Shown: positions 1 through 12,800 of the stretch, piece by piece | Layout: every line of letters begins with the position of its first letter | Position numbering within the stretch: position 1 is the stretch's first letter | DNA from: Pseudomonas sp. FP2309 | GTDB taxonomy: Bacteria > Pseudomonadota > Gammaproteobacteria > Pseudomonadales > Pseudomonadaceae | DNA: 64,000 nucleotides | Assembly: GCF_030687575.1 (NCBI RefSeq) | Contig: NZ_CP117439.1 | Coordinates: forward strand, 2,533,501-2,597,500 | Direction of reading: 5' to 3' | Made by a program: the position numbers and the translations under genes | The notes under the pieces: generated by a model | Databases searched by the model: none | What the model was told of the DNA's origin: nothing | What the model saw: only the letters and a program-made list of their open reading frames with translations

Positions 1-551
1 ACAGTGCCAAGGACCTCAGCGCCTCGGCCATGCTGCTCAGTGCGCCCGAGGGCATTGGTGCGGTGACACCGGCCAGTATGCTGCTCAAAAGCGGCAAGTC
101 GCTGTACGTGCAAAGCAGCGATGAGATCAACCTGGCCGCCGCCCAGCGCCTGTCGGTCCATGCAAACGAAGCCATCTCCCTATTGGCCCAGCAAGAAGGC
201 ATGCGCCTGGTTTCCGGCAAGGGCCCCCTGGAGATCGAATCCCACGGCGACGTGATGAAGCTGATTGCCCAACAGGACATCACTCAACAGTCGGTACAGG
301 GCCATCTGCAACTGACGGCCAAAAATGGCATCACCCTGGGCTGTGGAGGTGCCTATATCCGGCTTACGCCGCAAGGCGATATCCATATTCATGGCCCGGG
401 TTTGCTCAGTCTCAAGGGCAAACATCGTTTGAATCCGGGGACCAGTGAGCAATTTCCGTTGCCGGAGTTGCCCGGCTCGGTTTGCAAGGAATGCCTGAGG
501 AAGGCGCAGGCCACCGGACAAGGCTTCGTTCCCAGGGAGGTGCAAGCATGA
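1..551 (+). CDS. vgrG: VgrG spike protein, C-terminal part (cut by window start)
   Basis: This is the end of a type VI secretion VgrG, the trimeric puncturing spike that carries effectors out of the cell. The frame is open from base 3. Visible residues show the repeated beta-strand pattern of the DUF2345 C-terminal domain (MLLSAPEGIGA, SLYVQSSDEINL, SVHANEAISLLA, ITLGCGGAYIRL, GDIHIHGPG). The tail holds a CKEC pair and a short linker that may dock the adaptor or effector. Its TGA overlaps the ATG of the next gene (ATGA at 548-551), so the two are probably translationally coupled. The gp27/gp5 region lies outside the window. Confidence 0.9.
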   Translation, partial: SAKDLSASAMLLSAPEGIGAVTPASMLLKSGKSLYVQSSDEINLAAAQRLSVHANEAISLLAQQEGMRLVSGKGPLEIESHGDVMKLIAQQDITQQSVQGHLQLTAKNGITLGCGGAYIRLTPQGDIHIHGPGLLSLKGKHRLNPGTSEQFPLPELPGSVCKECLRKAQATGQGFVPREVQA

Positions 552-1348
552 GTGCGGCTCCTTGCGATACCTGGATAGAACTGCTGGAAGTCTCCTGCGC
601 AGAAGTGTCCGTCACCTGCCTGGATATCATCATCGATCAGGCCGGCAGCGAGTCTCCTTTATTGCCCAGCGTACTTGGCGTGGAGCCTGCACTGCCTTGG
701 CACTCGTTATTTACCGGCTTGCCTGAGGCCGCCGCCAGCGAGCTGGCGCCGTTGCTGGTGCGTGTCGACCTGGCGCAACCCCTGCAACGCCAGTGGCTTC
801 TCGGGCTGGCGCAAGCGCTGAAGGGGCGCTCCCAGCTGCTGGTGCTGGCCTCCTTCTGGCCTTTCCAGGAATTGGCCGAACACCTGGGGCAATGCCTGGA
901 AGTGCGCAATGGTGGGCACCTGGGCTTGCTGCGTTACTACGACCCGCGTGTTTTCCCGTTGCTGTTCAGCCATGTACTTGAACCCGAGCAGCAACACCGG
1001 TTGCTGTGTCCTGCTGTGTTCTGGAGTTGGCTGGATCGCGACGGCATTCCCAGGCAGCTCAAGGGGAGGGTCGATGCGCTGGAGCTGCCGGAGGACCTTG
1101 CACCGATTGAACTCAGCGATAAACAACTGGAAACGCTGTGCTGCGCCAGTGACGCCACGACAGCCATGGTGAGCCTGGCCGATGCACTGCCGCCTGAGTG
1201 GAGCGCCGAGCAGCACTTTCAAGCGTGCTACGCCGCCATGCTCGACGCCACCCATGTGGGGTTGTTGCTGGCGCCCGAGCGTCAAGCCCACACCCTCGAC
1301 AGGTTGCGCACCCTTTGCGCGCCACACCCCAGCGAAGACAGGACATGA
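548..1348 (+). CDS. DUF4123 type VI effector adaptor (Tap/TEC)
   Basis: This 266-aa DUF4123 protein belongs to the adaptor chaperones that load a specific effector onto its cognate VgrG in the cytoplasm. The hallmark LLRYYDPRVFP is followed by a conserved W-x-W-L-DRDG block (residues about 120-170). The start is the ATG at 548, which overlaps the vgrG stop; an in-frame ATG at 482 lies inside vgrG and is unlikely. Position between vgrG and a lipase effector is the usual adaptor context. Its stop overlaps the next start (ATGA, 1345-1348). Confidence 0.85.
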   Translation: MSAAPCDTWIELLEVSCAEVSVTCLDIIIDQAGSESPLLPSVLGVEPALPWHSLFTGLPEAAASELAPLLVRVDLAQPLQRQWLLGLAQALKGRSQLLVLASFWPFQELAEHLGQCLEVRNGGHLGLLRYYDPRVFPLLFSHVLEPEQQHRLLCPAVFWSWLDRDGIPRQLKGRVDALELPEDLAPIELSDKQLETLCCASDATTAMVSLADALPPEWSAEQHFQACYAAMLDATHVGLLLAPERQAHTLDRLRTLCAPHPSEDRT

Positions 1349-1875
1349 ACGGTATGTACAGATCCAGGGACGGCAGACCTCGCCTTGCCATGCTCGGTGC
1401 TTTGGCGGGCGCTTTGTGTGCGCAAAACGGTTTGGCCAGCACGCTCGAGGCGATCAATCACACCCACTGGGCGATCAACCGATTCAGTGTCGATGGCCGC
1501 TCAGGCATCGACATCATTGGTCCGTATCAGGGCGGTGGGGGCGGCTGCTGTTATGTCGCCCCGGCGCGTTGGCGGCCGGGGATGACGGTGCGTGTTGATT
1601 GGGAGAGTGGGGCGGGTAGTTCAGCTGGATTTCCAGGCTTCGCGGATCGGGAAAAATACTATGCGTGGATCGAAAAGATCGACTCCCAAAAACGCCAACT
1701 CACCAAAATAGTCCCTGTTCCCGACTACACAGGCCAGAAAGTCTGCGGCCTCACCGTTCACTTCCTGCCCTGCGATGACATCCAGGTCACCACCTCCTGC
1801 TACGCCTACGGCAGTCCCGAATACCCGATCAAAACCCCTCTGCAGTTGCCGGAGCCTCAGTCATGTCCGAAATGA
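1345..1875 (+). CDS. DUF3304 protein, putative Tle1 immunity, copy 1
   Basis: This 176-aa exported protein has the DUF3304 core: NHTHWAINRFSV, a five-glycine run followed by CCYVAPARW, then VCGLTVHFLPCDDI and a CYAYGSPEYPI block. An N-terminal signal peptide (positive n-region, AMLGALAGALCA core, likely cleavage after GLAS) sends it to the periplasm, where a phospholipase effector would have to be neutralised. The mature part is nearly identical to the seven copies after the lipase gene, but its signal peptide is different in sequence. Its last 13 bases overlap the lipase start. The immunity role is inferred from location and export. Confidence 0.75.
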   Translation: MNGMYRSRDGRPRLAMLGALAGALCAQNGLASTLEAINHTHWAINRFSVDGRSGIDIIGPYQGGGGGCCYVAPARWRPGMTVRVDWESGAGSSAGFPGFADREKYYAWIEKIDSQKRQLTKIVPVPDYTGQKVCGLTVHFLPCDDIQVTTSCYAYGSPEYPIKTPLQLPEPQSCPK

Positions 1876-4169
1876 AACATGCCAGTGTCTGCTACCCGCC
1901 ACCGTTTCCTCTGGAGGGGCGTCTGCCCCGTCGGGTTGGGCAGGTTCAGCAAAATATCCTGCGCCAGTGCGAGCAGGAGCGGGGTTATCACGATGCACTG
2001 TGTCTGGCCGCCGGTCGCCGGGTAACGCCACCGTGCTGCAAGACCTTGCACGTCAGCCTGTTCTTCGACGGTACCGGCAATAACCTGAACAACGACCTGT
2101 ACGAATCTGCGACAGTGCATCCGACGAACATCGCCCGGCTGTTTCGGGCCACCGTCGGAGCGGGTCATGCCGGTGGGACCGGGCACAACGACAGAGCCCA
2201 GCGGTTGACCGACGCGCCAGGCACCGGCAACGGCCAGTACTTCAAGTACTACATGCCTGGCGTCGGCACACCGTTTGCGGAGGTGGGCGACCTCAACTAC
2301 ACCACTGCCGGGCTGGCCGGGGCCTGGTTTGGCGAAGAGCGGATCAATTGGGCCCTGCTGATGCTGATCGATGCCCTGCGGCGCACGCTGGGCCTGCCGC
2401 GACAGGACAACATGAGCCTGAGGGCAGCGGTCCAGGCCATGGGCACGTTGCCAGGGCTGGAATCCATCAAGGGCCAGGCCAACCGGGCGACGGTGTTCAA
2501 CAAGCAACTCACGTTGATCGAACAGCCGTTGCGCCTGGCCTTGGCGCAACCGAATCCGGGCTCTTCAAAACTGTTGGGTCTGAAGGTGTATGTCTACGGT
2601 TTTTCCAGGGGGGCAGCGGCAGCGCGGGCGTTTGTCAGTTGGCTGAATACATTGATGCGTTACCGCCCGAACTTGAAGCTGGGTGATCTGGAACTACCCC
2701 TGAGCGTGGAATACCTGGGGTTGTTGGACACCGTGGCCTCGGTGGGCATCGCCGACATCCTGCCGGGGGCGGATGGGCATATGAGCTGGGCCGATGGCAA
2801 TCAGGAACTGCCCGGTGGTGGGCTGGTCAAGCGCTGCCTGCACCTGACGGCGGCGTTTGAGCAGCGACTGTGTTTTCCGCTGGAGTCGATACGGCGCGAG
2901 AGTGGTGCTTACCCGGTGAATAGTGTGGAGGTGATTTATCCAGGGGTGCATTCGGATTTGGGGGGAGGGTATCCGCCGGGGGATCAGGGGAAGGCTAACG
3001 GCGAAAGCGATCATTTGTTGTTGTCGCAAATATCCTTGAATGATTTGTATGCGGATGCTTTTGCACATGGCGCACCGTTAAAGGTTCCAAAAAAAATGTT
3101 ACCAATCGGACTAGGCCATGAGCCATGGCGGGCAATGGCCCCCGAAGTCGTTTTAGAATTTATTACTGCGCCTATTTTAGTCGAGCGCTTCAACGCCTGG
3201 CGCCAGCTAACCTTGGGTCTACCGCCGGTCAATCAACCTCTACCCACAGAACAAATAGAACGCTACCAGCCCCTCACGTCCACCGCCACCTTGGAACAGG
3301 CCGCACGGACCCAGTTAGGCTGGATCACCGCCTGGCGCATCAATCGCTACGCTCTTGCCAGCCTCAAACAGACTCCGTTCTACCTCCAGGCAAGCGATAC
3401 TGAAGCCGATACGGTGGCTCGTGAAAAAGCCAGGACCCAACGCAATCAAAATCAGGCTGCCGTCGAAAAACGCCGTCGCCAGCAACTCGCTATCGAGCGC
3501 GAAGGCCGCACGCCGAAAAGGCCACTGGAACCCGGGGTCAAGGACTTCGATGCCGACATGGGGCAAACCCAATTGCGCGAGGCCGCCGAGGAGTTTGGTG
3601 CAGCCTACCGCGACCCCGATCACCTGGCCTCCAGCCTGAGTCGAGTGTTACCGGCGAACACGCCGCCCTTGGTGGTGCTGCGCATCATCACCGCCGACGC
3701 CCGCGTTGAGTGCCGGCAAATGAAAGCGGCAGGGCAGGCCAGGGTCGACCAACTGTTTGCGCCGCCCGCTGGTTACCGCAATCGGCTGACTGCCGACGCC
3801 TATGGTCGCGTACACAAAACCGCCAACCCCAATGAACCGGTGGAGCTGTTGCGTGCGCTGTTTGATGACCAGGTCCACGACTCCCGCGCCTGGTTTCTTT
3901 ATTCATTGGGCCGTGAGCCGATGGGCAGCTATTTCCGTGAGCGCATGGTGTTCTTCGGTGAAGCCAGCAGAAGAGAGCTCGCGCTCAATCCCGAAACCCA
4001 AGCGACGATGCTCGCCGACATCACAGCGTTACCTGCCTCGAATGCGGTCATTGCAACTTCACCCCCGGTCATGGAAGCCCACCGTTTGGCTGAGGCTCAC
4101 AAGGCCATCGATGCGCACTGGGCGGCCTATTACGCCAGGCTCGGCGAGGTGAGCAATGTACAGATCTGA
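1863..4169 (+). CDS. tle1: Tle1-type phospholipase effector (DUF2235)
   Basis: This 768-aa protein of the DUF2235 alpha/beta-hydrolase family is probably a type VI lipase effector attacking membrane phospholipids in rival cells. The N-terminus carries LFFDGTGNNL. The nucleophile elbow is YGFSRGAAAARAF with Ser at residue 248. A likely catalytic Asp lies in GLLDTVASVG and a likely His in PGVHSDLGGGYPPG. A charged linker (about residues 510-565, rich in K, R and Q) precedes the C-terminal region. It starts 13 bases inside the preceding immunity gene and ends 14 bases inside the next. A more AT-rich patch occurs near 3050-3180. Confidence 0.85.
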   Translation: MSEMKHASVCYPPPFPLEGRLPRRVGQVQQNILRQCEQERGYHDALCLAAGRRVTPPCCKTLHVSLFFDGTGNNLNNDLYESATVHPTNIARLFRATVGAGHAGGTGHNDRAQRLTDAPGTGNGQYFKYYMPGVGTPFAEVGDLNYTTAGLAGAWFGEERINWALLMLIDALRRTLGLPRQDNMSLRAAVQAMGTLPGLESIKGQANRATVFNKQLTLIEQPLRLALAQPNPGSSKLLGLKVYVYGFSRGAAAARAFVSWLNTLMRYRPNLKLGDLELPLSVEYLGLLDTVASVGIADILPGADGHMSWADGNQELPGGGLVKRCLHLTAAFEQRLCFPLESIRRESGAYPVNSVEVIYPGVHSDLGGGYPPGDQGKANGESDHLLLSQISLNDLYADAFAHGAPLKVPKKMLPIGLGHEPWRAMAPEVVLEFITAPILVERFNAWRQLTLGLPPVNQPLPTEQIERYQPLTSTATLEQAARTQLGWITAWRINRYALASLKQTPFYLQASDTEADTVAREKARTQRNQNQAAVEKRRRQQLAIEREGRTPKRPLEPGVKDFDADMGQTQLREAAEEFGAAYRDPDHLASSLSRVLPANTPPLVVLRIITADARVECRQMKAAGQARVDQLFAPPAGYRNRLTADAYGRVHKTANPNEPVELLRALFDDQVHDSRAWFLYSLGREPMGSYFRERMVFFGEASRRELALNPETQATMLADITALPASNAVIATSPPVMEAHRLAEAHKAIDAHWAAYYARLGEVSNVQI

Positions 4170-4728
4170 TTCTGTTTCGCGATGCAGCGCTCAAGGAATT
4201 AAACCGATGTACACCTCTCTTTCATGCAATGTGTGGGTGGGTTTTCTTTGCTGTCTGGCTGGGGCCGCTTGGGTACAAAGCGCCCCGGCCGGCACGCTTG
4301 AGGCGATCAACCACACCCATTGGGCGATCAACCGATTCAGTGTCGAGGGTCGTTCAGGTATCGACATCATCGGCCCGTATCAGGGCGGCGGAGGCGGTTG
4401 CTGTTACGTCGCCCCGGCACGTTGGCAGCCGGGCATGACTGTGCGTGTTGATTGGGAGACTGGGGTGGCTTACTCCTATGACAATCCTGGCCTTAGTGAT
4501 GAGGTTAAGTACGACGCGTGGCTAGACAAAATCGATGCCCAAAAACGCCAACTCACCAAAACAGTCCCAGTTCCCGACTACACCAACCAAAAAGTCTGCG
4601 GCCTCACCGTTCACTTTCTGCCCTGCGATGACATCCAGGTCACCACCTCCTGCTACGCCTACGGCAGCCCCGAATACCCGATCAAAACGCCGCTGCAGTT
4701 GCCGGAGCCTCAGTCATGCTCGAAGTAA
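4156..4728 (+). CDS. DUF3304 immunity-like protein, copy 2
   Basis: First of seven tandem copies after the lipase gene. I choose the 190-aa start at 4156 because a strong GAGGTGA site sits 3 bases upstream, the start overlaps the tle1 stop, and MYRS also begins copy 1 (after MNG). A second start at 4207 (173 aa) has a weaker AAGGAA site. A hydrophobic segment ending QSAPA before GTLEA predicts periplasmic export. The variable window (about residues 103-130) reads VAYSYDNPGLSDEVKYDAW. Periplasmic Tle1 antagonism is inferred. Confidence 0.72.
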   Translation: MYRSDSVSRCSAQGIKPMYTSLSCNVWVGFLCCLAGAAWVQSAPAGTLEAINHTHWAINRFSVEGRSGIDIIGPYQGGGGGCCYVAPARWQPGMTVRVDWETGVAYSYDNPGLSDEVKYDAWLDKIDAQKRQLTKTVPVPDYTNQKVCGLTVHFLPCDDIQVTTSCYAYGSPEYPIKTPLQLPEPQSCSK

Positions 4729-4781
4729 TGCGGGAGGTATGCCTGTCCAGGCTCGGCGAGGTGAGCAATGCACAGATCTGA
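4716..4781 (+). pseudogene. tle1-derived mini-ORF 1 between copies 2 and 3
   Basis: This 21-codon reading frame starts at the ATG overlapping the copy 2 stop by 13 bases. It ends SRLGEVSNAQI at a TGA overlapping the copy 3 start by 14 bases. Tle1 itself ends ARLGEVSNVQI and has the same 13- and 14-base overlaps with its neighbours. It therefore looks like a lipase gene reduced to its ends. Translation is unproven. Confidence 0.6.
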
Positions 4782-5340
4782 TTCTGCTTCGAGATGCAGC
4801 ACTCCAGGAATTAAACCGATGCACATCTCTCTTTCATGCAATGCGTGGGTGGGTTTTCTCTGCTGTCTGGCTGGGGCCGCTTGGGTACAAAGCGCCCCGG
4901 CCGGCACGCTTGAGGCGATCAACCACACCCACTGGGCGATCAACCGATTCAGTGTCGAGGGTCGCTCAGGTATCGACATCATTGGCCCGTATCAGGGCGG
5001 CGGAGGCGGTTGCTGTTATGTCGCCCCGGCGCGTTGGCAGCCGGGTATGACGGTGCGTGTTGATTGGGAGACTGGGGCGGGTAGTTCAGAAGATTTTCCG
5101 GGCATAGGTGATTGGCCGAAGTTTTTAGCTTGGGAAAAGAAAATTAAAGCCCAAAAACGCCAACTCACCAAAATAGTCCCAGTCCCCGACTACACCGGCC
5201 AAAAAGTCTGCGGCCTCACCGTTCACTTTCTGCCCTGCGATGACATCCAGGTCACCACCTCCTGCTACGCCTACGGCAGTCCTGAATACCCGATCAAAAC
5301 GCCGCTGCAGTTGCCGGAGCCTCAATCATGTTCGAAGTAA
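4768..5340 (+). CDS. DUF3304 immunity-like protein, copy 3
   Basis: This 190-aa copy lies exactly 612 bp after copy 2 and is nearly identical outside the variable window, which here reads AGSSEDFPGIGDWPKFLAW and is followed by EKKIKAQ. That makes it one of the more divergent specificities. The signal peptide, five-glycine CC motif and CYAYGSPEYPI tail are kept. The shorter alternative start is at 4819. Mini-ORFs overlap it on both sides. Confidence 0.72.
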   Translation: MHRSDSASRCSTPGIKPMHISLSCNAWVGFLCCLAGAAWVQSAPAGTLEAINHTHWAINRFSVEGRSGIDIIGPYQGGGGGCCYVAPARWQPGMTVRVDWETGAGSSEDFPGIGDWPKFLAWEKKIKAQKRQLTKIVPVPDYTGQKVCGLTVHFLPCDDIQVTTSCYAYGSPEYPIKTPLQLPEPQSCSK

Positions 5341-5393
5341 TGCGGGAGGTATGCCGATCCAGGCTCCGCGAGGTGAGCAATGTACAGATCTGA
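5328..5393 (+). pseudogene. tle1-derived mini-ORF 2 between copies 3 and 4
   Basis: A 21-codon frame ending SRLREVSNVQI (Gly of the Tle1 tail replaced by Arg), with the same overlaps to both neighbouring genes as mini-ORF 1. Confidence 0.6.
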
Positions 5394-5952
5394 TTCTGCT
5401 CCGCGATGCAGCGCTTCCGGAATTAAACCGATGTACACCTCTCTTTCATGCAACGTATGGGTGGGTTGGCTCTGCTGTCTGGCTGGGGCCGCCTGGGTAC
5501 AAAGCGCCCAGGCCGGCACGCTTGAGGCGATCAACCACACCCACTGGGCGATCAACCGATTCAGTGTCGAGGGTCGTTCAGGTATCGACATCATTGGTCC
5601 GTATCAGGGCGGCGGAGGTGGCTGCTGTTATGTCGCACCATCGCGCTGGAAGTCTGGCCTCACGGTGCGTGTGGATTGGGAAACAGGAGTGGCAGGTTCA
5701 AAAGGCTTTCCGGGATTTGCTGATCGCCCCAAATACCTTGCTTGGCTTGCCAAGATGGAGGTCCAAAAACGCCAACTCACCAAAATAGTCCCAGTTCCCG
5801 ACTACACCGGCCAAAAAGTCTGCGGCCTCACCGTTCACTTCCTGCCTTGCGATGACATCCAGGTCACCACCTCCTGCTACGCCTACGGCAGCCCTGAATA
5901 CCCGATCAAAACGCCGCTGCAGTTGCCGGAGCCTCAGTCATGTTCGAAGTAA
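5380..5952 (+). CDS. DUF3304 immunity-like protein, copy 4
   Basis: This is a 190-aa copy (shorter alternative start 5431). Its variable window reads VAGSKGFPGFADRPKYLAW followed by LAKMEVQ. Just before it, the otherwise constant PARWQPGMTV is replaced by PSRWKSGLTV, so the variation extends further upstream than in other copies. Export signal and DUF3304 core are intact. Confidence 0.72.
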   Translation: MYRSDSAPRCSASGIKPMYTSLSCNVWVGWLCCLAGAAWVQSAQAGTLEAINHTHWAINRFSVEGRSGIDIIGPYQGGGGGCCYVAPSRWKSGLTVRVDWETGVAGSKGFPGFADRPKYLAWLAKMEVQKRQLTKIVPVPDYTGQKVCGLTVHFLPCDDIQVTTSCYAYGSPEYPIKTPLQLPEPQSCSK

Positions 5953-6005
5953 TGCGGGAGGTATGCCGATCCAGGCTCGGCGAGGTGAGCAATGCACAGA
6001 TCTGA
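5940..6005 (+). pseudogene. tle1-derived mini-ORF 3 between copies 4 and 5
   Basis: A 21-codon frame ending SRLGEVSNAQI. It keeps the Gly of the Tle1 C-terminus and has the same overlaps to both neighbours. Confidence 0.6.
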
Positions 6006-6564
6006 TTCTGTTCCGCGATGCAGCACTCCCGGAATTAAACCGATGCACACCTCTCTTTCACGCAATGTGTGGGTGGGTTTTCTCTGCTGTCTGGCTGGGG
6101 CCGCCGAGGTACAAAGCGCCCAGGCCGGTACGCTTGAGGCGATCAACCACACCCATTGGGCGATCAACCGATTCAGTGTCGATGGTCGCTCAGGTATCGA
6201 CATCATTGGCCCGTATCAGGGCGGCGGAGGCGGTTGCTGTTATATCGCCCCGGCGCGTTGGCAGCCGGGGATGACGGTGCGTGTTGATTGGGAGACTGGA
6301 GTGGGTAGTTCGAAGGGGTTTCCCGGTTTCGCTGATGAGGTCAAGTACGATGCTTGGCTGGATGGGATCGATGCCCAAAAACGCCAACTCACCAAAATAG
6401 TCCCAGTCCCCGACTACACCGGCCAAAAAGTCTGCGGCCTCACCGTTCACTTCCTGCCTTGCGATGACATCCAAGTCACCACCTCCTGCTACGCCTACGG
6501 TAGCCCCGAATACCCGATCAAAACCGCGCTGCAGTTGCCGGAGCCTCAATCATGTTCGAAGTAA
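5992..6564 (+). CDS. DUF3304 immunity-like protein, copy 5
   Basis: This is a 190-aa copy (shorter alternative start 6043). The window VGSSKGFPGFADEVKYDAW is the same as in copy 8, and only the next residues differ (LDGID against LDKID). It carries FSVDGRS as in copy 1, where the other tandem copies have FSVEGRS, and CCYIAP instead of CCYVAP. The near-duplicate of copy 8 suggests recent amplification or gene conversion. Confidence 0.72.
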   Translation: MHRSDSVPRCSTPGIKPMHTSLSRNVWVGFLCCLAGAAEVQSAQAGTLEAINHTHWAINRFSVDGRSGIDIIGPYQGGGGGCCYIAPARWQPGMTVRVDWETGVGSSKGFPGFADEVKYDAWLDGIDAQKRQLTKIVPVPDYTGQKVCGLTVHFLPCDDIQVTTSCYAYGSPEYPIKTALQLPEPQSCSK

Positions 6565-6617
6565 TGCGGGAGGTATGCCGATCCAGGCTCCGCGAGGTGA
6601 GCAATGCACAGATCTGA
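6552..6617 (+). pseudogene. tle1-derived mini-ORF 4 between copies 5 and 6
   Basis: A 21-codon frame ending SRLREVSNAQI, with the same overlaps to both neighbours. Confidence 0.6.
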
Positions 6618-7176
6618 TTCTGTTCCGCGATGCAGCGCTCAAGGAATTAAACCGATGTATACCTCTCTTTCACGCAATGTGTGGGTGAGTTGGCTCTGCT
6701 GTCTGGCTGGAGCCGCCTGGGTACAAAGCGCCCAGGCCGGCACGCTTGAGGCGATCAACCACACCCACTGGGCGATCAACCGATTCAGTGTCGAGGGTCG
6801 TTCAGGTATCGACATCATCGGCCCGTATCAGGGTGGCGGAGGCGGCTGCTGTTATGTCGCCCCGGCGCGTTGGCAGTTGGGGATGACGGTGCGTGTTGAT
6901 TGGGAGACTGGAGTGGCCTATCCAGATGATTTTCCTGGGTTTGCCGATAGACCCAAGTATCTGGCTTGGGTTAAAAAAAATGATGGGCTCACGCGAAAGC
7001 ACAGCAAAGACGTTCCCATCCCCGACTACACCAACCAAAAAGTCTGCGGCCTCACCGTTCACTTTCTGCCTTGCGATGACATCCAGGTCACCACCTCCTG
7101 CTACGCCTACGGCAGCCCCGAATACCCGATCAAAACGCCGCTGCAGTTGCCGGAGCCTCAATCATGTTCGAAGTAA
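6604..7176 (+). CDS. DUF3304 immunity-like protein, copy 6
   Basis: This is the most divergent tandem copy (190 aa; alternative start 6655). After VAYPDDFPGFADRPKYLAW it has VKKNDGLTRKHSKDVPIPDY where the others have a KRQLTK-VPVPDY segment, so its variable window is longer. TNQK replaces TGQK, as in copy 2. The rest of the DUF3304 core and the signal peptide are conserved. Confidence 0.72.
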   Translation: MHRSDSVPRCSAQGIKPMYTSLSRNVWVSWLCCLAGAAWVQSAQAGTLEAINHTHWAINRFSVEGRSGIDIIGPYQGGGGGCCYVAPARWQLGMTVRVDWETGVAYPDDFPGFADRPKYLAWVKKNDGLTRKHSKDVPIPDYTNQKVCGLTVHFLPCDDIQVTTSCYAYGSPEYPIKTPLQLPEPQSCSK

Positions 7177-7237
7177 TGCGGGAGGTATGCCGATGAACTA
7201 CTCCAGCCTCAACGAGGTGAGCAATGCACAGATTTGA
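7164..7237 (+). pseudogene. Split tle1-like remnant between copies 6 and 7
   Basis: Here the frame starting at 7164 stops after 10 codons, but its stop forms an ATGA junction with a second ATG at 7193. That second frame encodes MNYSSLNEVSNAQI and stops at 7237, inside the copy 7 start. The tail SLNEVSNAQI is a diverged version of the lipase C-terminus, so this remnant may come from a different effector allele. The chain of overlapping frames is still unbroken. Confidence 0.55.
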
Positions 7238-7796
7238 TTCTGCTCCGCGATGCAGCACTCCCGGAATTAAACCGATGTATACCTCTCTTTCACGCAATGT
7301 GTGGGTGGGTTGGCTCTGCTGTCTGGCTGGGGCCGCCTGGGTACAAAGCGCCCAGGCCGGCACGCTTGAGGCGATCAACCACACCCATTGGGCGATCAAC
7401 CGATTCAGTGTCGAGGGTCGTTCAGGTATCGACATCATCGGTCCGTATCAGGGCGGTGGTGGTGGCTGCTGTTACGTCGCCCCGGCACGTTGGCAGCCGG
7501 GTATGACGGTGCGTGTTGATTGGGAGACTGGGGTGGCCTATCCAGATGGATTTCCAGGGTTTGCAGATGAAGGCAAATACGAGGCTTGGTCGAAGAAAGT
7601 TAGAGCCCAAAAACGCCAACTCACCAGAACAGTCCCAATCCCCGACTACACCGGCCAAAAAGTCTGCGGCCTCACCGTTCACTTTCTGCCCTGCGATGAC
7701 ATCCAGGTCACCACCTCCTGCTACGCCTACGGCAGCCCTGAATACCCGATCAAAACCCCGCTGCAGTTGCCGGAGCCTCAGTCATGCTCGAAGTAA
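7224..7796 (+). CDS. DUF3304 immunity-like protein, copy 7
   Basis: This is a 190-aa copy (alternative start 7275). It lies 620 rather than 612 bp after copy 6 because the preceding spacer is 8 bp longer and carries a different mini-ORF. The variable window is VAYPDGFPGFADEGKYEAW followed by SKKVRAQ, and KRQLTRTVPIPDY replaces KRQLTKIVPVPDY. Signal peptide and core are kept. Confidence 0.72.
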   Translation: MHRFDSAPRCSTPGIKPMYTSLSRNVWVGWLCCLAGAAWVQSAQAGTLEAINHTHWAINRFSVEGRSGIDIIGPYQGGGGGCCYVAPARWQPGMTVRVDWETGVAYPDGFPGFADEGKYEAWSKKVRAQKRQLTRTVPIPDYTGQKVCGLTVHFLPCDDIQVTTSCYAYGSPEYPIKTPLQLPEPQSCSK

Positions 7797-7849
7797 TGCG
7801 GGAGGTATGCCGATCCAGGCTCCGCGAGGTGAGCAATGTACAGATCTGA
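7784..7849 (+). pseudogene. tle1-derived mini-ORF 5 between copies 7 and 8
   Basis: A 21-codon frame ending SRLREVSNVQI, with the same 13- and 14-base overlaps as the other units. Confidence 0.6.
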
Positions 7850-8408
7850 TTCTGTTCTGCGATGCAGCACTCCAGGAATTAAACCGATGCACACCTCTCT
7901 TTCATGCAACGTGTGGGTGGGTTGGCTCTGCTGTATGGCTGGAGCCGCTTGGGTACAAAGCGCCCAGGCCGGCACGCTTGAGGCGATCAACCACACCCAC
8001 TGGGCGATCAACCGATTCAGTGTCGAGGGTCGTTCAGGTATCGACATCATTGGCCCGTATCAGGGCGGTGGGGGCGGTTGCTGTTACGTCGCCCCGGCGC
8101 GTTGGCAGGCGGGGATGACGGTGCGTGTTGATTGGGAGACTGGGGTGGGTAGTTCGAAGGGGTTTCCCGGTTTCGCTGATGAGGTTAAGTACGACGCGTG
8201 GCTGGACAAAATCGATGCCCAAAAACGCCAACTCACCAAAATAGTCCCAGTTCCCGACTACACCGGCCAAAAAGTCTGCGGCCTCACTGTTCACTTTCTG
8301 CCTTGCGATGACATCCAGGTCACCACCTCCTGCTACGCCTACGGCAGCCCCGAATGCCCGATCAAAACCCCGCTGCAGTTGCCGGAGCCTCAGTCATGCT
8401 CGAAGTAA
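7836..8408 (+). CDS. DUF3304 immunity-like protein, copy 8
   Basis: This is the last copy of the array, 190 aa (alternative start 7887). The variable window equals that of copy 5, and the next residues LDKIDAQ equal those of copy 2, so it is mosaic. The tail has SPECPI where the others read SPEYPI, adding a cysteine. Its stop overlaps a short reading frame that leads into the PAAR gene. Confidence 0.72.
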   Translation: MYRSDSVLRCSTPGIKPMHTSLSCNVWVGWLCCMAGAAWVQSAQAGTLEAINHTHWAINRFSVEGRSGIDIIGPYQGGGGGCCYVAPARWQAGMTVRVDWETGVGSSKGFPGFADEVKYDAWLDKIDAQKRQLTKIVPVPDYTGQKVCGLTVHFLPCDDIQVTTSCYAYGSPECPIKTPLQLPEPQSCSK

Positions 8409-8436
8409 TGCACGGCCAATATTGGGAGGTATGGTG

Positions 8437-8694
8437 ATGAAATCGGTTATCCGTCAAGGCGACACACTGCGGGAATATGGCGGCGAAGTGCTGGAGGGGC
8501 ATTACGAGTGTGATGGGAGCCCCATAGCCTGCCTGGGTGATGCCGTGCGCTGTAACCTGCACGGTCGAACCGAGGTCGCCGAAGGCAGCGACTTGCTGCA
8601 CATTGACGGCCGTCCGGCGGCCTTGCATGGCCACCGATGCAAGTGCGGGTGCACGCTGGTCAGCTCAATGCCCGACACGGAGGTGGCGTTTTGA
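8437..8694 (+). CDS. PAAR-domain type VI spike tip protein
   Basis: This 85-aa protein has the PAAR-repeat layout (VIRQGDTLREYGG, DGSPIACLGDAVRC, LLHIDGRPAALHGHRCKCGC). PAAR proteins cap the VgrG spike and sharpen it, binding a metal through His/Cys residues. The start at 8437 is chosen because GGGAGGT at 8424-8430 is well spaced from it; the ATG at 8431 sits too close. A 13-codon frame from the copy 8 stop (8396-8437) ends in TGATG at this start. The stop overlaps the next gene's TTG. Confidence 0.85.
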   Translation: MKSVIRQGDTLREYGGEVLEGHYECDGSPIACLGDAVRCNLHGRTEVAEGSDLLHIDGRPAALHGHRCKCGCTLVSSMPDTEVAF

Positions 8695-9824
8695 TTCCCG
8701 CTCCTGAGTTTGGCCCCTATCCGCTGGTACAAGCACCCCTGTATTCGCGCTGGCTGGCGAGTGGCGTGGCCTTGCTGGTTTTTTCGGGCAGCATCAGCGT
8801 GGCATTGCGACCGATGATTGAAGCGCGATTGGCGATCGGCAGTGTGGCCGGTGTGTTCCTGATCTGGGTGCTCGCGCTGTTGTTGCGCGTTTTATTTTTT
8901 CGCTTCAATCGGCATAACGCGCAGAGCTATCACGAGGCAGTCGAACAGGTGCGCCAGGCGTGGTGGCAGGACCATCGGCAGACCATCGCATTGGTCGAAT
9001 CCGTGCTGGTATCCGCGGCCTGCACGAGCGCAGAAAACGGCCTGAGACTGTTCAGCTCAGACCATCTGCCGCCGGTGCCGCAGGAAACACCCCAAGGGCG
9101 AACGCTGCACCTTTGTCAGGTGTTTGGAAGTGACGTTGCAGAACGCGAACACAACTTGGCGATTTTGCTCGCTCAACAGTGGCACGAACAACGTGGTGAA
9201 AACGCCGTCGTTCAGCCGCTGCGTTGTTACTGGCAGGGCTCGCAGGCGGCCTGGCAAGCATTCGCCCATCAAGTCGCGCTGTGCACGCCACAGGTTCAAC
9301 TACCCGAACTGCCCGAGACGTGGGAGGGCATTCGTAGCCTCGATTCGGTGATTGATCAATTGCAGGGCGCAGCGACGACGGCCCGTATTCTGTGTGCCGG
9401 TTGCCAATCCTCGCCGGCAGAGCAGGAAAGCCATTCGCCGGCCGGGGAAGCGGCGCTGCTCTGGTTGTTCGGCCCCCAGGGCGGCGTGCGCTTTACGCGA
9501 GGTGAATGGTTTTCGGTCGACACCGAGCAGCTCACCACGGTCGCTGAGCGAGCCTTGCAACAGAGTGACCTGACGACGCCTGCTGCGCTGTGCGTGTCGT
9601 TCGCCCAGCCGGATGTGGCTGACCTGCCGGCCATTGGCTGGAACTGCAAGCAGCATGTGCAAGACGCCAACTTCGGCACTTTGAATCGTCTACAGGCCAT
9701 GGTCGCGCAAACCCTGGCGGCCTGGTATGCCGAAGCGCATCAGGTGCCTTGCGCCTGGTTGGCAAACGACCCCCATCACACCCTGGCCCTTGGAGTTATG
9801 GAACCCGATGACTCAACAAATTGA
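8691..9824 (+). CDS. Unknown two-helix membrane protein of the VgrG island
   Basis: This 377-aa protein is not one I recognise. It uses a TTG start (8691) with GGAGG upstream, and TTGA overlaps the PAAR stop. Two hydrophobic helices (about residues 23-40 and 48-68) are followed by a soluble domain of about 300 residues with no motif I can name. It overlaps the TssM-like gene by 17 bases, so the two membrane proteins are probably made together and may form a complex. A role in PAAR/effector loading is only a guess. Confidence 0.6.
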   Translation: MIPAPEFGPYPLVQAPLYSRWLASGVALLVFSGSISVALRPMIEARLAIGSVAGVFLIWVLALLLRVLFFRFNRHNAQSYHEAVEQVRQAWWQDHRQTIALVESVLVSAACTSAENGLRLFSSDHLPPVPQETPQGRTLHLCQVFGSDVAEREHNLAILLAQQWHEQRGENAVVQPLRCYWQGSQAAWQAFAHQVALCTPQVQLPELPETWEGIRSLDSVIDQLQGAATTARILCAGCQSSPAEQESHSPAGEAALLWLFGPQGGVRFTRGEWFSVDTEQLTTVAERALQQSDLTTPAALCVSFAQPDVADLPAIGWNCKQHVQDANFGTLNRLQAMVAQTLAAWYAEAHQVPCAWLANDPHHTLALGVMEPDDSTN

Positions 9825-12800
9825 ATCTCCGACAATATCCAGGGGCAAAACAGCTCTATTACTGGCTGTGATCCTGGCGGTACTGGTGGCAGCGGGCGCC
9901 GCGATCTGGTGGTTATTCATGGAGCCCGAACTTCCCAGTCGGGCCGTGATACGCGATCTCGTGTTAAGGGGCATTCTGCTATGGGCAGTGTTTTTCGGCA
10001 TGGCGCTGGTCTCATGGCAGATTATCCAGAAGGGGATACGCAGGTTGGTCGTGGGGGCTCGGTCGTTAACGGTACCGCCCGCCGCCGAACCCGATGGATG
10101 CAAATATCAGGCAGAGTTGATTGAGTATTTGCGCGAATGCTACGGCTTCTTCTGGCGCTCCAGAGTCCGCCTGCTTTTAGTCATCGGCGAGCCCGCCGAA
10201 ATTCAAGCGATCGCCCCCGCGTTGGCCGAACAACACTGGCTGGAAGCACAAGGCACCGTACTGCTCTGGGGTGGCAGTGCCCAAGCGAGTCTGGATCAGC
10301 CACTCGAAAACCAATGGACCGGCCTCAGCCGCTGGCGAGCGCTGGACGGCGTCGTCTGGGCACTGAACAAAACCCAGGCCGCCGATGACGCTGCGATGGG
10401 CAAAGGCGTGCGGCAATTGCAAGGCCTGGCCCGCCACCTGAACTGGCAATTGCCGCTCTACCTCTGGCAAATCTGCGACAGTCCATGGTCCCAGGCCCCC
10501 CGCAAGTCGCAGCCGGTGGGGTGCCTGTTGTCAGCGCGCTTCACGCCGGCGCAGCTGGAAACCGCTTTGACGCGGCTGCTGGAGCCTTTGCGGCGTGAAG
10601 GGCTGGCGCAGATGAACGCGGTGATGAGCCATGACTTCCTGCTACGCCTTTCCCGCGATTTGCAGGAGGAGGGCATTGCGCGTTGGCGGCATACGCTTTC
10701 GGCATTGACCGGCCAGTTTGCCTGTGGTGTGCCGTTACGAGGTGTGTGGTTCAGTCAGCCGGTGCAGCGTTCTCCCCATGAAACGGAAAACCATTGGGTG
10801 GTGACCCCGGTTTGGCAGGGCGTGCTGGGCGATCGTGTGCGCAGTCACAGGTTCGGCTGGGGTGTTCCGCGCGTCGTTTACGCGCTTACGCTGGGCCTGG
10901 CCATGCTGTGGGGGGCGGGGTTGTTATTGTCGTTCGCGAGTAATGGTGTGCTGATCAAGCAGGTCCAAACCGCACTGGCGACATTGCAGCAACCGGGCAC
11001 TGGCGACGAACAATTGAGTGCCCTCAACGAACTGGTCCGCGAACTGGCACGCCTGGACGATCGCGTCCAGGGCGGCGCTCCGTGGTATCAACGCTTCGGC
11101 TTGAGCCAAAATCAGGCACTGCTCGAAACGTTGTGGCCACGTTATGTCGAGGCCAACAACCGCCTGATCCGCGACCCGGCCGCCGCCACGCTGCGCCAGC
11201 AGCTCAACGCGCTGGTCAAGCTGGCGCCGGACAGCCCCGAGCGTGCCGAACGTGCCCAAGAGGCCTACGCCCAGCTCAAGGCTTACCTGATGATGGCGCG
11301 CCCGGAAAAAGCCGATGCCGGTCTCCTGGTCAAGACCCTGAGTGACGTTGAGCCCTCGCGCGCAGGTATATCTCCCGGGCTTTGGCAAATCCTGGCGCCC
11401 AACCTGTGGCAGTTCTACGGCGAACACCTGAGCGCAAACCCTGCATGGCGCATCGAGACCGATCCCAGGCTGGTGGCACAGGTCCGCCAGGTGCTGCTCG
11501 GCCAGTTGGGCCGACGCAATGCCGAAGCCAGCCTGTACCAACAACTGCTCGACGACGCCGCCAATCACTACGCCGATCTGGGCCTCCACCAATTGGTGGG
11601 TGACACCGATGCCCTGGCCCTGTTCTCCACCGATGCCAGCGTGCCGGGCGTCTTCACCCGCCAGGCCTGGGAGGGTCAGGTGCGTCAGGCCATCGACGTG
11701 ATCGCCGCGGCCCGCCGCGAGGAAATCGACTGGGTGCTCAGCGACAAGCCCAGCGACATCGACACCCGCTTGAGCCCGGACCAGCTCCGCGAGCGGCTCA
11801 CCGAACGCTATTTCCAGGACTACGCCAGTGCCTGGCTGGAACTGCTCAACAGCCTGCGCTGGCAGCAGGCCGGCAGCCTCGCCGACGTGATTGACCAACT
11901 GACGCTGATGAGTGATGTGCGCCAATCCCCACTGATTGCGTTGATGAACACGGTGGCCTATCACGCTCAGGCGGGTACCCGCACCGAAGCGTTGGCCGAC
12001 TCGCTTGTGAAGTCCGCGCAACAGCTGATCGGGCAGGACAACGCGCCATTGATCGACCAACTGGCCCACCTGCCCGGCAGCCCCTTGGACGCCACTTTTG
12101 GTCCCTTGCTGGCGCTGCTGGGCAAAGGCCCGGAGGGCAAGAGCGGCGCCGATGGCCTCAGCCTCCAATCTTTCCTCACTCGCGTGACGCGGGTGCGCTT
12201 GAAGTTGCAGCAAGTCAGCACGGCGCCCGATCCGCTGGAAATGACCCAGGCACTGGCGCAAACCGTGTTTCAAGGCCGCAGCATCGACCTGACCGACACC
12301 CAAGCCTACGGCAGCCTGATGGCCGCCAGCCTGGGGGCGGAGTGGGGCGGGGCGGCGCAAACGTTGTTCGTGCAACCCCTGGAACACGCCTGGCAACGCG
12401 TTTTGCAACCGTCTGCGGCAGGCATCAACAGCCAGTGGCAACGCTCGATCGTCAGCCATTGGGATGATGCTTTCGCCAGCCGCTACCCGTTCACCGCCAC
12501 TGCCAGCGATGCGTCCTTGCCGATGCTGGGCCAGATGATCCGCGCAGACTCCGGCCGCATCGAGCAGTTTTTGCAACGACAACTGAGTGGCGTGTTGCGC
12601 AAGGAGGGCAGCCGCTGGGTGGCAGACCCGCGCCACAGCCAAGGGCTGCGCTTCAACCCGCAATTTCTGACTGCCATTAACCAGCTCAGTGATTTGGCTG
12701 ACGTGCTCTACACCGATGGCGGTATGGGGCTGAGTTTTGAACTGCAGGGCAAACCGGTACGCGATGTGGTGCAAACCACCTTCATCCTCAACGGCGACAA

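Follow-up and report, generated by a model that had tools for sequence, protein, structure and literature searches.

Spacers in a Tle1 immunity gene array of Pseudomonas sp. FP2309 as probable scars of tandem duplication

Several described systems share features with the locus analyzed here, an array of seven DUF3304 immunity genes (imm1 to imm7), separated by short spacers, that lies behind the phospholipase effector gene tle1 of a type VI secretion system (T6SS) in Pseudomonas sp. FP2309; a further copy, imm0, precedes tle1. The stretch of 64,000 nucleotides examined (contig NZ_CP117439.1, positions 2,533,501 to 2,597,500) is termed the window, and coordinates refer to it. Homogeneous polyimmunity loci (Zhang et al. 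2012, PMC3482391) likewise comprise tandem, co-oriented paralogs of one immunity family, a description that fits the present locus, with seven tandem copies plus imm0 and all 8 matches in the genome located here. In this array, however, the copies are chained by overlaps and parted by a putative scar of effector tail and PAAR leader, and spacers of this kind are not described in the available portion of that paper. The T6SS immunity arrays of V. cholerae (Kirchberger et al. 2017, PMC5361080) also lie behind an effector but are explained, in the accessible parts of the report, by displacement via transferred modules, with duplication argued against; here the backbone common to the copies points to duplication, and the spacers that they share would likewise argue for duplication rather than for an array of the displacement type.

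Effector relics in series have been described for rhs (Jackson et al. 2009, PMC2935791), where dissociated C-terminal tips are repeated downstream of an intact effector and some are frame-broken. According to the sections of that paper at hand, those relics are distinct, displaced tips that are thought to be silent, whereas in the window the same 3' end recurs each time and carries the start of the next gene. Short frames that deliver ribosomes to a following gene are represented, in the available text of two reports, by mycobacterial MIRU elements (PMC12548453), short repeats whose open reading frame (ORF) couples to the downstream gene, and by bicistronic-design leaders (PMC5995908) of about 20 codons, the 3' end of which holds the Shine-Dalgarno sequence of the second cistron. 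MIRUs are described as mobile, with a spacing of -4, whereas the spacer in the window has an overlap of 14 nt and is confined to the array: a whole-genome search with one spacer returned 7 matches, comprising the six spacers and the tail of tle1 itself (the latter matched by query bases 32-66 only), and no dispersed, MIRU-like copies anywhere in the genome. Bicistronic-design leaders are engineered, whereas the mini-ORFs in the window are natural, putative counterparts. The tle1 locus of P. aeruginosa with vgrG4a, tla1, tli1a and tli1b (PMC13133936) shares with the window DUF3304, Tle1, a DUF4123 adaptor and more than one tli copy; it has, however, two tli copies, one a proposed pseudogene, and no such array is described in the part of the report accessible. 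An earlier inspection of the window (the sequence-only reading) had stated that no case resembling its spacers was described, which is too strong given MIRU elements, bicistronic leaders and the rhs relics. Tle1 debris between duplicated immunity genes went unreported in the titles and abstract openings surveyed, most subscription papers falling outside that survey.

The spacers are, with high probability, scars of tandem duplication of a segment comprising the tle1 tail, an immunity gene and the leader of the PAAR gene. Five of them each contain a mini-ORF of 66 nt and 21 codons, formed of a PAAR-leader half and a tle1-tail half (4716..4781, 5328..5393, 5940..6005, 6552..6617 and 7784..7849, all on the + strand). 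The remaining spacer, between imm5 and imm6, is 8 nt longer and split into two + strand frames joined by ATGA: the first (7164..7196, 10 codons) corresponds to the PAAR leader minus 12 nt and ends in ATGA, and the second (7193..7237, 14 codons) opens with the ATGAA of the PAAR start and continues into the tle1 tail. Unit spacing along the array is accordingly 612, 612, 612, 612, 620 and 612. The parent type of the left halves is present in the window as the leader between imm7 and the PAAR gene, a + strand mini-ORF of 13 codons (8396..8437) that ends in TGATG on the PAAR start. In position and length, this layout, with five 21-codon frames and one split frame between seven DUF3304 genes behind tle1, agrees with the sequence-only reading. 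That reading had further regarded the spacers as relics of tle1, which describes their right half, the left half being PAAR leader.

In every spacer the right half derives from the 3' end of tle1, of which it is a relic: the last 10 residues of the mini-ORF are 90% identical to the Tle1 tail in the four cases compared, and in the mini-ORF at 6552 agreement, judged by eye, is 8 of 10 residues. Over 34 bases, interrupted by a single gap of 12 nt, the left half of the split spacer agrees at 31 positions with the PAAR leader of the window, the alignment continuing through the ATGAA of PAAR; past the immunity stop, 19 of 21 bases are identical. Its score past the stop is 28 against that leader (reached by 0 of 2000 shuffles) and 13.1 against the window's own tle1 head (387 of 2000). 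In a wider comparison, using sets of entries that include loci present twice, the best of 95 tle1-head entries scored 19.4, and the median of 11 PAAR-leader entries was 23.3. Two 21-codon spacers tested in the same way scored 20 and 22 against the window's PAAR leader, values reached by 3 and 1 of 2000 shuffles; against its tle1 head both scored 13.1 (488 and 392 of 2000). The ends of the immunity genes show the same division, with array copies ending S-K-TAA, as does the copy before PAAR, and imm0, before tle1, ending P-K-TGA.

Several observations weigh against a duplication of this kind. The homology of the left half is short (about 20 bases) and is weaker in the 21-codon spacers, for which the best tle1-head entries from elsewhere (16 and 19.4) come near the PAAR-leader scores; for the first of these spacers the best such entry, at 16, exceeds the PAAR-leader median of 14. 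Moreover, this spacer type was absent from other loci among the 128 distinct junctions between immunity genes that were collected, so that the duplication is read from one genome, and the order of its steps (620 before 612, and deletion before spread) is inferred.

In that order, the duplicated segment would have begun roughly 12 or 13 codons ahead of the tle1 stop, taken in the immunity gene and ended at the first PAAR codons. At the junction, PAAR leader and ATGAA would have been joined to the tle1 tail, producing the split spacer and the 620-nt unit; a subsequent 8-nt deletion would have produced the 612-nt unit, shifting the tail into the frame of the ATG embedded in the end of the upstream immunity gene and so creating a single 21-codon frame, which unequal exchange would then have spread to seven copies. 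The tle1 tail would persist as the ribosome-binding site and start codon of the immunity gene, and the start of the mini-ORF would persist in being spelled by the conserved C-terminal codons of the immunity gene before it. With the mini-ORFs included, overlapping frames run in a complete chain from vgrG as far as the gene that follows PAAR.

The geometry of the spacers reflects these constraints. Each of the five 21-codon mini-ORFs shares 13 nt with the end of the immunity gene upstream, across its stop, and 14 nt with the start of the one downstream, exactly as full-length tle1 overlaps imm0 (13 nt) and imm1 (14 nt), a correspondence that the sequence-only reading had correctly recorded. The 13-nt overlap is set by C-terminal Ser-Cys codons of the immunity gene (TCATG), this Cys being an invariant column in 58 aligned immunity domains, and the 14-nt overlap is set by the retained tle1 tail. 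Because these codons, the tail and a single ancestral spacer dictate identical overlaps across the spacers, their sameness is forced.

Retention of the tail is readily understood from its content. Immunity starts that lie in a tle1 tail were compared at 47 junctions, three of them behind an interior-deleted tle1; at all 47 the start is in frame with the immunity domain, and the frame stays open as far as that domain. The overlap is 14 nt in 43 of the 47, and a Shine-Dalgarno match of at least 4 is found in 46; the residues of the Tle1 tail vary although overlap and Shine-Dalgarno are kept. The tail is thus the ribosome-binding site of the immunity gene, which is enough reason for its retention. 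Several database entries give immunity proteins of 173 amino acids, which had prompted the idea of an internal start further downstream; this was disfavored, a downstream ATG with such a Shine-Dalgarno match occurring in just 12 of 47 junctions. The start of the following frame can be assessed by the embedded ATG, which we counted in immunity genes having Cys three residues before the stop, others being dropped. It is kept in 75 of 75 immunity genes preceding a full or near-full tle1, and also in 26 of the 32 copies whose linker is unbridged and in 26 of 30 terminal copies, a distribution that weighs against its serving a relay of ribosomes; because these unbridged and terminal copies keep it too, the embedded ATG says little about function.

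Whether the mini-ORFs act on expression is a separate question, on which two accounts can be weighed. The first, to which we assign roughly an even chance, is that they are an inert footprint: only the ribosome-binding site would be kept, the open frame would be accidental, and the mini-ORFs would have no effect on expression. The spacers would go back to a single founding event, and in the window an open frame has a high chance of arising by accident. A linker was counted as bridged when its frame either stops between -8 and +20 relative to the start that follows or reads on in frame. On this definition the chance of bridging for the 21-codon spacers is 0.49-0.54 on shuffling and 0.65-0.66 with random phase, so that, for the window by itself, the open frame lacks statistical significance. 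The GAGGTGA Shine-Dalgarno could also initiate by itself, and frames are broken in several relatives. Against this account, bridged linkers are in excess across the genus, and several unlike linker types, of 21, 25, 54, 63, 91, 99, 109 and 322 codons, have their ends between -3 and +14 relative to the start that follows.

The excess was estimated from 131 sequences, the window included, some of which are the same locus from two sources; 72 loci came from named genomes, a match was found in 58 of 398 genomes of the genus (the genome of the window included), and an additional set of relatives (10 of 293, E 1e-40 or better) returned only genomes already covered. Embedded ATGs were present in 74 of the 128 junctions, and the other 54 were set aside. 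Among 32 Pseudomonas rows, five of them from the window (four 21-codon spacers, the fifth being a duplicate that was dropped, and the split spacer), 24 bridge, compared with 6.2 expected on shuffling and 12.9 with phase only; among 20 rows from outside Pseudomonas, 2 bridge, compared with 2.4 and 3.0. When rows were reduced to units chosen by hand, each array or deletion type being represented once, bridging is seen in 12 of 18 Pseudomonas units with the window left out, against 6.6 expected with random phase (P 0.0013) and 2.6 on shuffling (P 2.6e-10), and in 13 of 20 with the window's two spacer types included (P 0.002 and 4.4e-9, respectively). Only 1 of 8 units from outside Pseudomonas bridges, against about 1 expected. 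Stricter choices under the phase null gave P 0.0033 (without L148), 0.006 (one unit per locus) and 0.015 (both); L148 had entered by its bridged copy, its second copy (5110) being unbridged and outside the ATG filter. In a third-frame control over the 74 junctions, which included direct overlaps and used wider limits, 55 were linked in the embedded frame versus 19 in the third frame. Leaders between immunity and PAAR genes bridge in 10 of 10 cases, against 6.2 (shuffle) and 6.1 (phase) expected, with P 0.0056 to 0.0064 uncorrected for shared ancestry; this test covered embedded-ATG junctions, being 9 of the 19 PAAR-next junctions listed plus L042. Such leaders occur as open mini-ORFs of 12-14 codons in the window and in L038, L039, L042, L047, L049, L060, L110, L112 and L119, and end in ATGA or TGATG on the PAAR start in 9 of the 10 loci, the one in L119 ending 2 nt before it.

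On balance, frame chains are probably favored in these operons, though not needed everywhere. A second account, that the mini-ORFs remain open under selection to hand ribosomes to the next immunity gene in the manner of a bicistronic leader, is possible yet somewhat doubtful, and we extend the same reserve to the proposal, which the relatives suggest, that the frame chain of the window itself would have been selected for ribosome hand-over. The layout is that of a coupled leader, with the GAGGTGA Shine-Dalgarno inside the mini-ORF and the mini-ORF stop 14 nt past the next start, and the mini-ORFs are probably translated, as may be inferred because their Shine-Dalgarno and start are of the kind that tle1 uses. 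The unit excess over random phase in Pseudomonas speaks for hand-over, as do the uniformly bridged PAAR leaders (though these are not independent) and two spacers of the closest relative, L110, that lack an immunity start and are fused in frame from the tle1 start. So does the junction chain of the window, which is gap-free once the mini-ORFs are counted: spacings run -4, -4, -13, -14, then -13/-14 through each 21-codon spacer, with an extra ATGA step in the split spacer, -13/-1 at PAAR and -4 after PAAR, values that depend on the starts chosen by us at 548, 1345 and 8691.

Several observations oppose such a relay. Six of the 18 Pseudomonas units and 7 of the 8 others are broken, the second copy in L148 is unbridged, and the split spacer itself counts as unbridged, its first frame ending 27 nt before the immunity start. 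Phase changes in tle1 remnants are out of frame (L110, L147, L151, L080) about as often as in frame (L045, L050, L148); an apparent in-frame excess of deletions was dropped when a three-frame re-check showed out-of-frame changes too. The spacing of -14 is unfavorable, since coupling drops as overlaps exceed 4 nt, according to the accessible text on MIRUs (PMC12548453). Nor was occlusion of the immunity Shine-Dalgarno found, 45 tle1-immunity starts having a median of 0.37 unpaired against 0.38 at 15 control starts, and a hairpin hiding this site was accordingly rejected as a coupling device. The proposal of the sequence-only reading that the frame is kept to pass ribosomes along finds backing in the genus-level excess of frame chains, but not in the broken units or in the accessibility of the start. 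Protein-level selection on the mini-ORF was not supported, the ratio of nonsynonymous to synonymous differences (pN/pS) being 0.96 with very few changes, which likewise counts against a relay. Longer linkers gave pN/pS of 0.21 in L080 (0.15 for a 12-codon pair), 0.30 in L110, 0.20 in L146, 0.50 in L147 and 0.46 in L176, and high values in L155 (1.66) and L173 (1.44); the low values were set aside as proof of selection, as recombination with intact heads could explain them.

Related loci contain other forms of effector debris, and the partly deleted effectors whose existence the sequence-only reading had led one to look for were indeed found (in L045, L050, L110, L146, L147, L148 and others). 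In P. umsongensis (L045) an interior-deleted tle1 of 54 codons forms a linker of tle1 residues 10-27 and 744-777; P. putida ASAD (L050) has two, of 322 and 91 codons, composed of residues 10-78 and 523-775, and of 10-30, 543-563 and 733-775 (numbering in these linkers starts at about 10). Each of the three sits between two immunity genes and retains the reading frame as well as both overlaps. The array of L110 (genome G059) differs from that of the window: its four spacers each carry the first ~57 tle1 residues, two of them keeping the tle1 tail out of frame with the head, and the other two lacking the tail and the immunity start, so that the frame of the tle1 head continues into the immunity protein. 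These natural fusions of tle1 head and immunity protein occupy 5940-6638 and 7381-8079 of L110, and comparable ones occur in L068, L148 and L157. Heads without a tail are found in the arrays of L146, L147, L151, L155 and L157, and some heads in L080, from Erwinia aphidicola, have decayed and contain stops. In the latter locus (3241-10828), tle1-head remnants separate nine DUF3304 genes, two of which are frame-broken; three heads of the same length differ mostly synonymously (the pN/pS of 0.21 given above) though they are uncoupled from the next gene.

It is very unlikely that the window's spacers arose, as the sequence-only reading had it, by amplification of an immunity-effector pair whose tle1 had already lost its interior, leaving head and tail as spacer: linkers of head plus tail are real in L045 and L050, with both overlaps kept in one frame, and head-bearing spacers, two with tail, in L110, but the left-half alignment and the whole-genome search found only the tail in the window, and the PAAR-leader identity of the left half (0 of 2000 shuffles for the split spacer, against 387 for the tle1 head) refutes such a history here, barring later replacement of the head by PAAR leader through gene conversion. 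Interior deletion of tle1 was on these grounds rejected as the source of these spacers, and the tandem duplication of tle1 tail, immunity gene and PAAR leader is retained.

The immunity copies that were multiplied differ from one another mainly in one place. The six further array copies are 86-91% identical to imm1, for which the best match in the other genus genomes compared is 79%; proteins P0005 and P0006 of further strains reach up to 87% identity, and the variable segment may be exchanged. The seven copies show a nucleotide difference of 30-38% at gene positions 301-390 and at most 15% elsewhere, which places the variable segment at immunity residues ~101-130, about 30 residues, in the genes spanning 4156-8408. 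In all 16 arrays profiled, one of them from Photorhabdus and one from Erwinia, the equivalent segment ranks among the most variable, although the single most variable bin is located elsewhere in L074, L128 and L177. P0006, from a 616-base contig, combines a backbone of the array type with the variable segment of imm0 (1345-1875), and P0009 has an imm1-like segment in another backbone; these mixtures point to segment exchange between copies and species. The variable segment may set specificity for Tle1 variants, and from their sequences the arrays look like repertoires of one variable cassette; the proteins of the window's array presumably protect the host against its own Tle1 lipase.

The surrounding genes form a single series on the + strand, comprising the end of vgrG, upstream of the immunity locus, then the adaptor, imm0, tle1, seven DUF3304 genes and PAAR. 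The DUF4123-type, tla1-like adaptor gene (548..1348, within an ORF of 482-1348, with the chosen start at 548) has both ends in ATGA overlaps, and its naming as DUF4123/Tla1 is by analogy with the P. aeruginosa locus as far as PMC13133936 was available. The start of imm0 (1345..1875, ending P-K-TGA as above) was chosen at the ATGA overlap; its ORF (1198-1872) matches Pfam PF11745 (E 1.1e-30). The effector gene tle1 (1863..4169) encodes 768 amino acids matching PF22137 (E 1e-40) and PF09994 (E 1.1e-17), so that the catalytic and C-terminal domains of Tle1 are present with their DUF3304 neighbor (PF11745). The array proper consists of imm1 (4156..4728; PF11745, E 6.2e-31), imm2 (4768..5340), imm3 (5380..5952), imm4 (5992..6564), imm5 (6604..7176), imm6 (7224..7796) and imm7 (7836..8408); Pfam was run on imm0, imm1, imm2 and imm5 among the immunity copies, and the last two also match PF11745. 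The PAAR gene (8437..8694; PF05488, E 2.8e-18) overlaps at its 3' end, by TTGA, a candidate TTG start of the next gene at 8691.

These findings outline, at the level of sequence, a route by which a T6SS immunity array may grow by duplication, a process argued against for the arrays of V. cholerae, and the relatives supply natural intermediates in the form of interior-deleted effectors and fusions of effector head and immunity protein. They also make testable the question of whether debris of dead genes can be kept only because ribosomes must pass through it. As a broader and rather improbable conjecture, immunity libraries in Pseudomonas Tle1 operons might grow with the chain of overlapping frames unbroken, the debris between copies being trimmed until it relays ribosomes again. 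If this were true, an effector tail, an effector head, an interior-deleted effector or a PAAR leader would each have turned into a relay that carries translation through a repertoire of immunity genes varying chiefly in a single segment.

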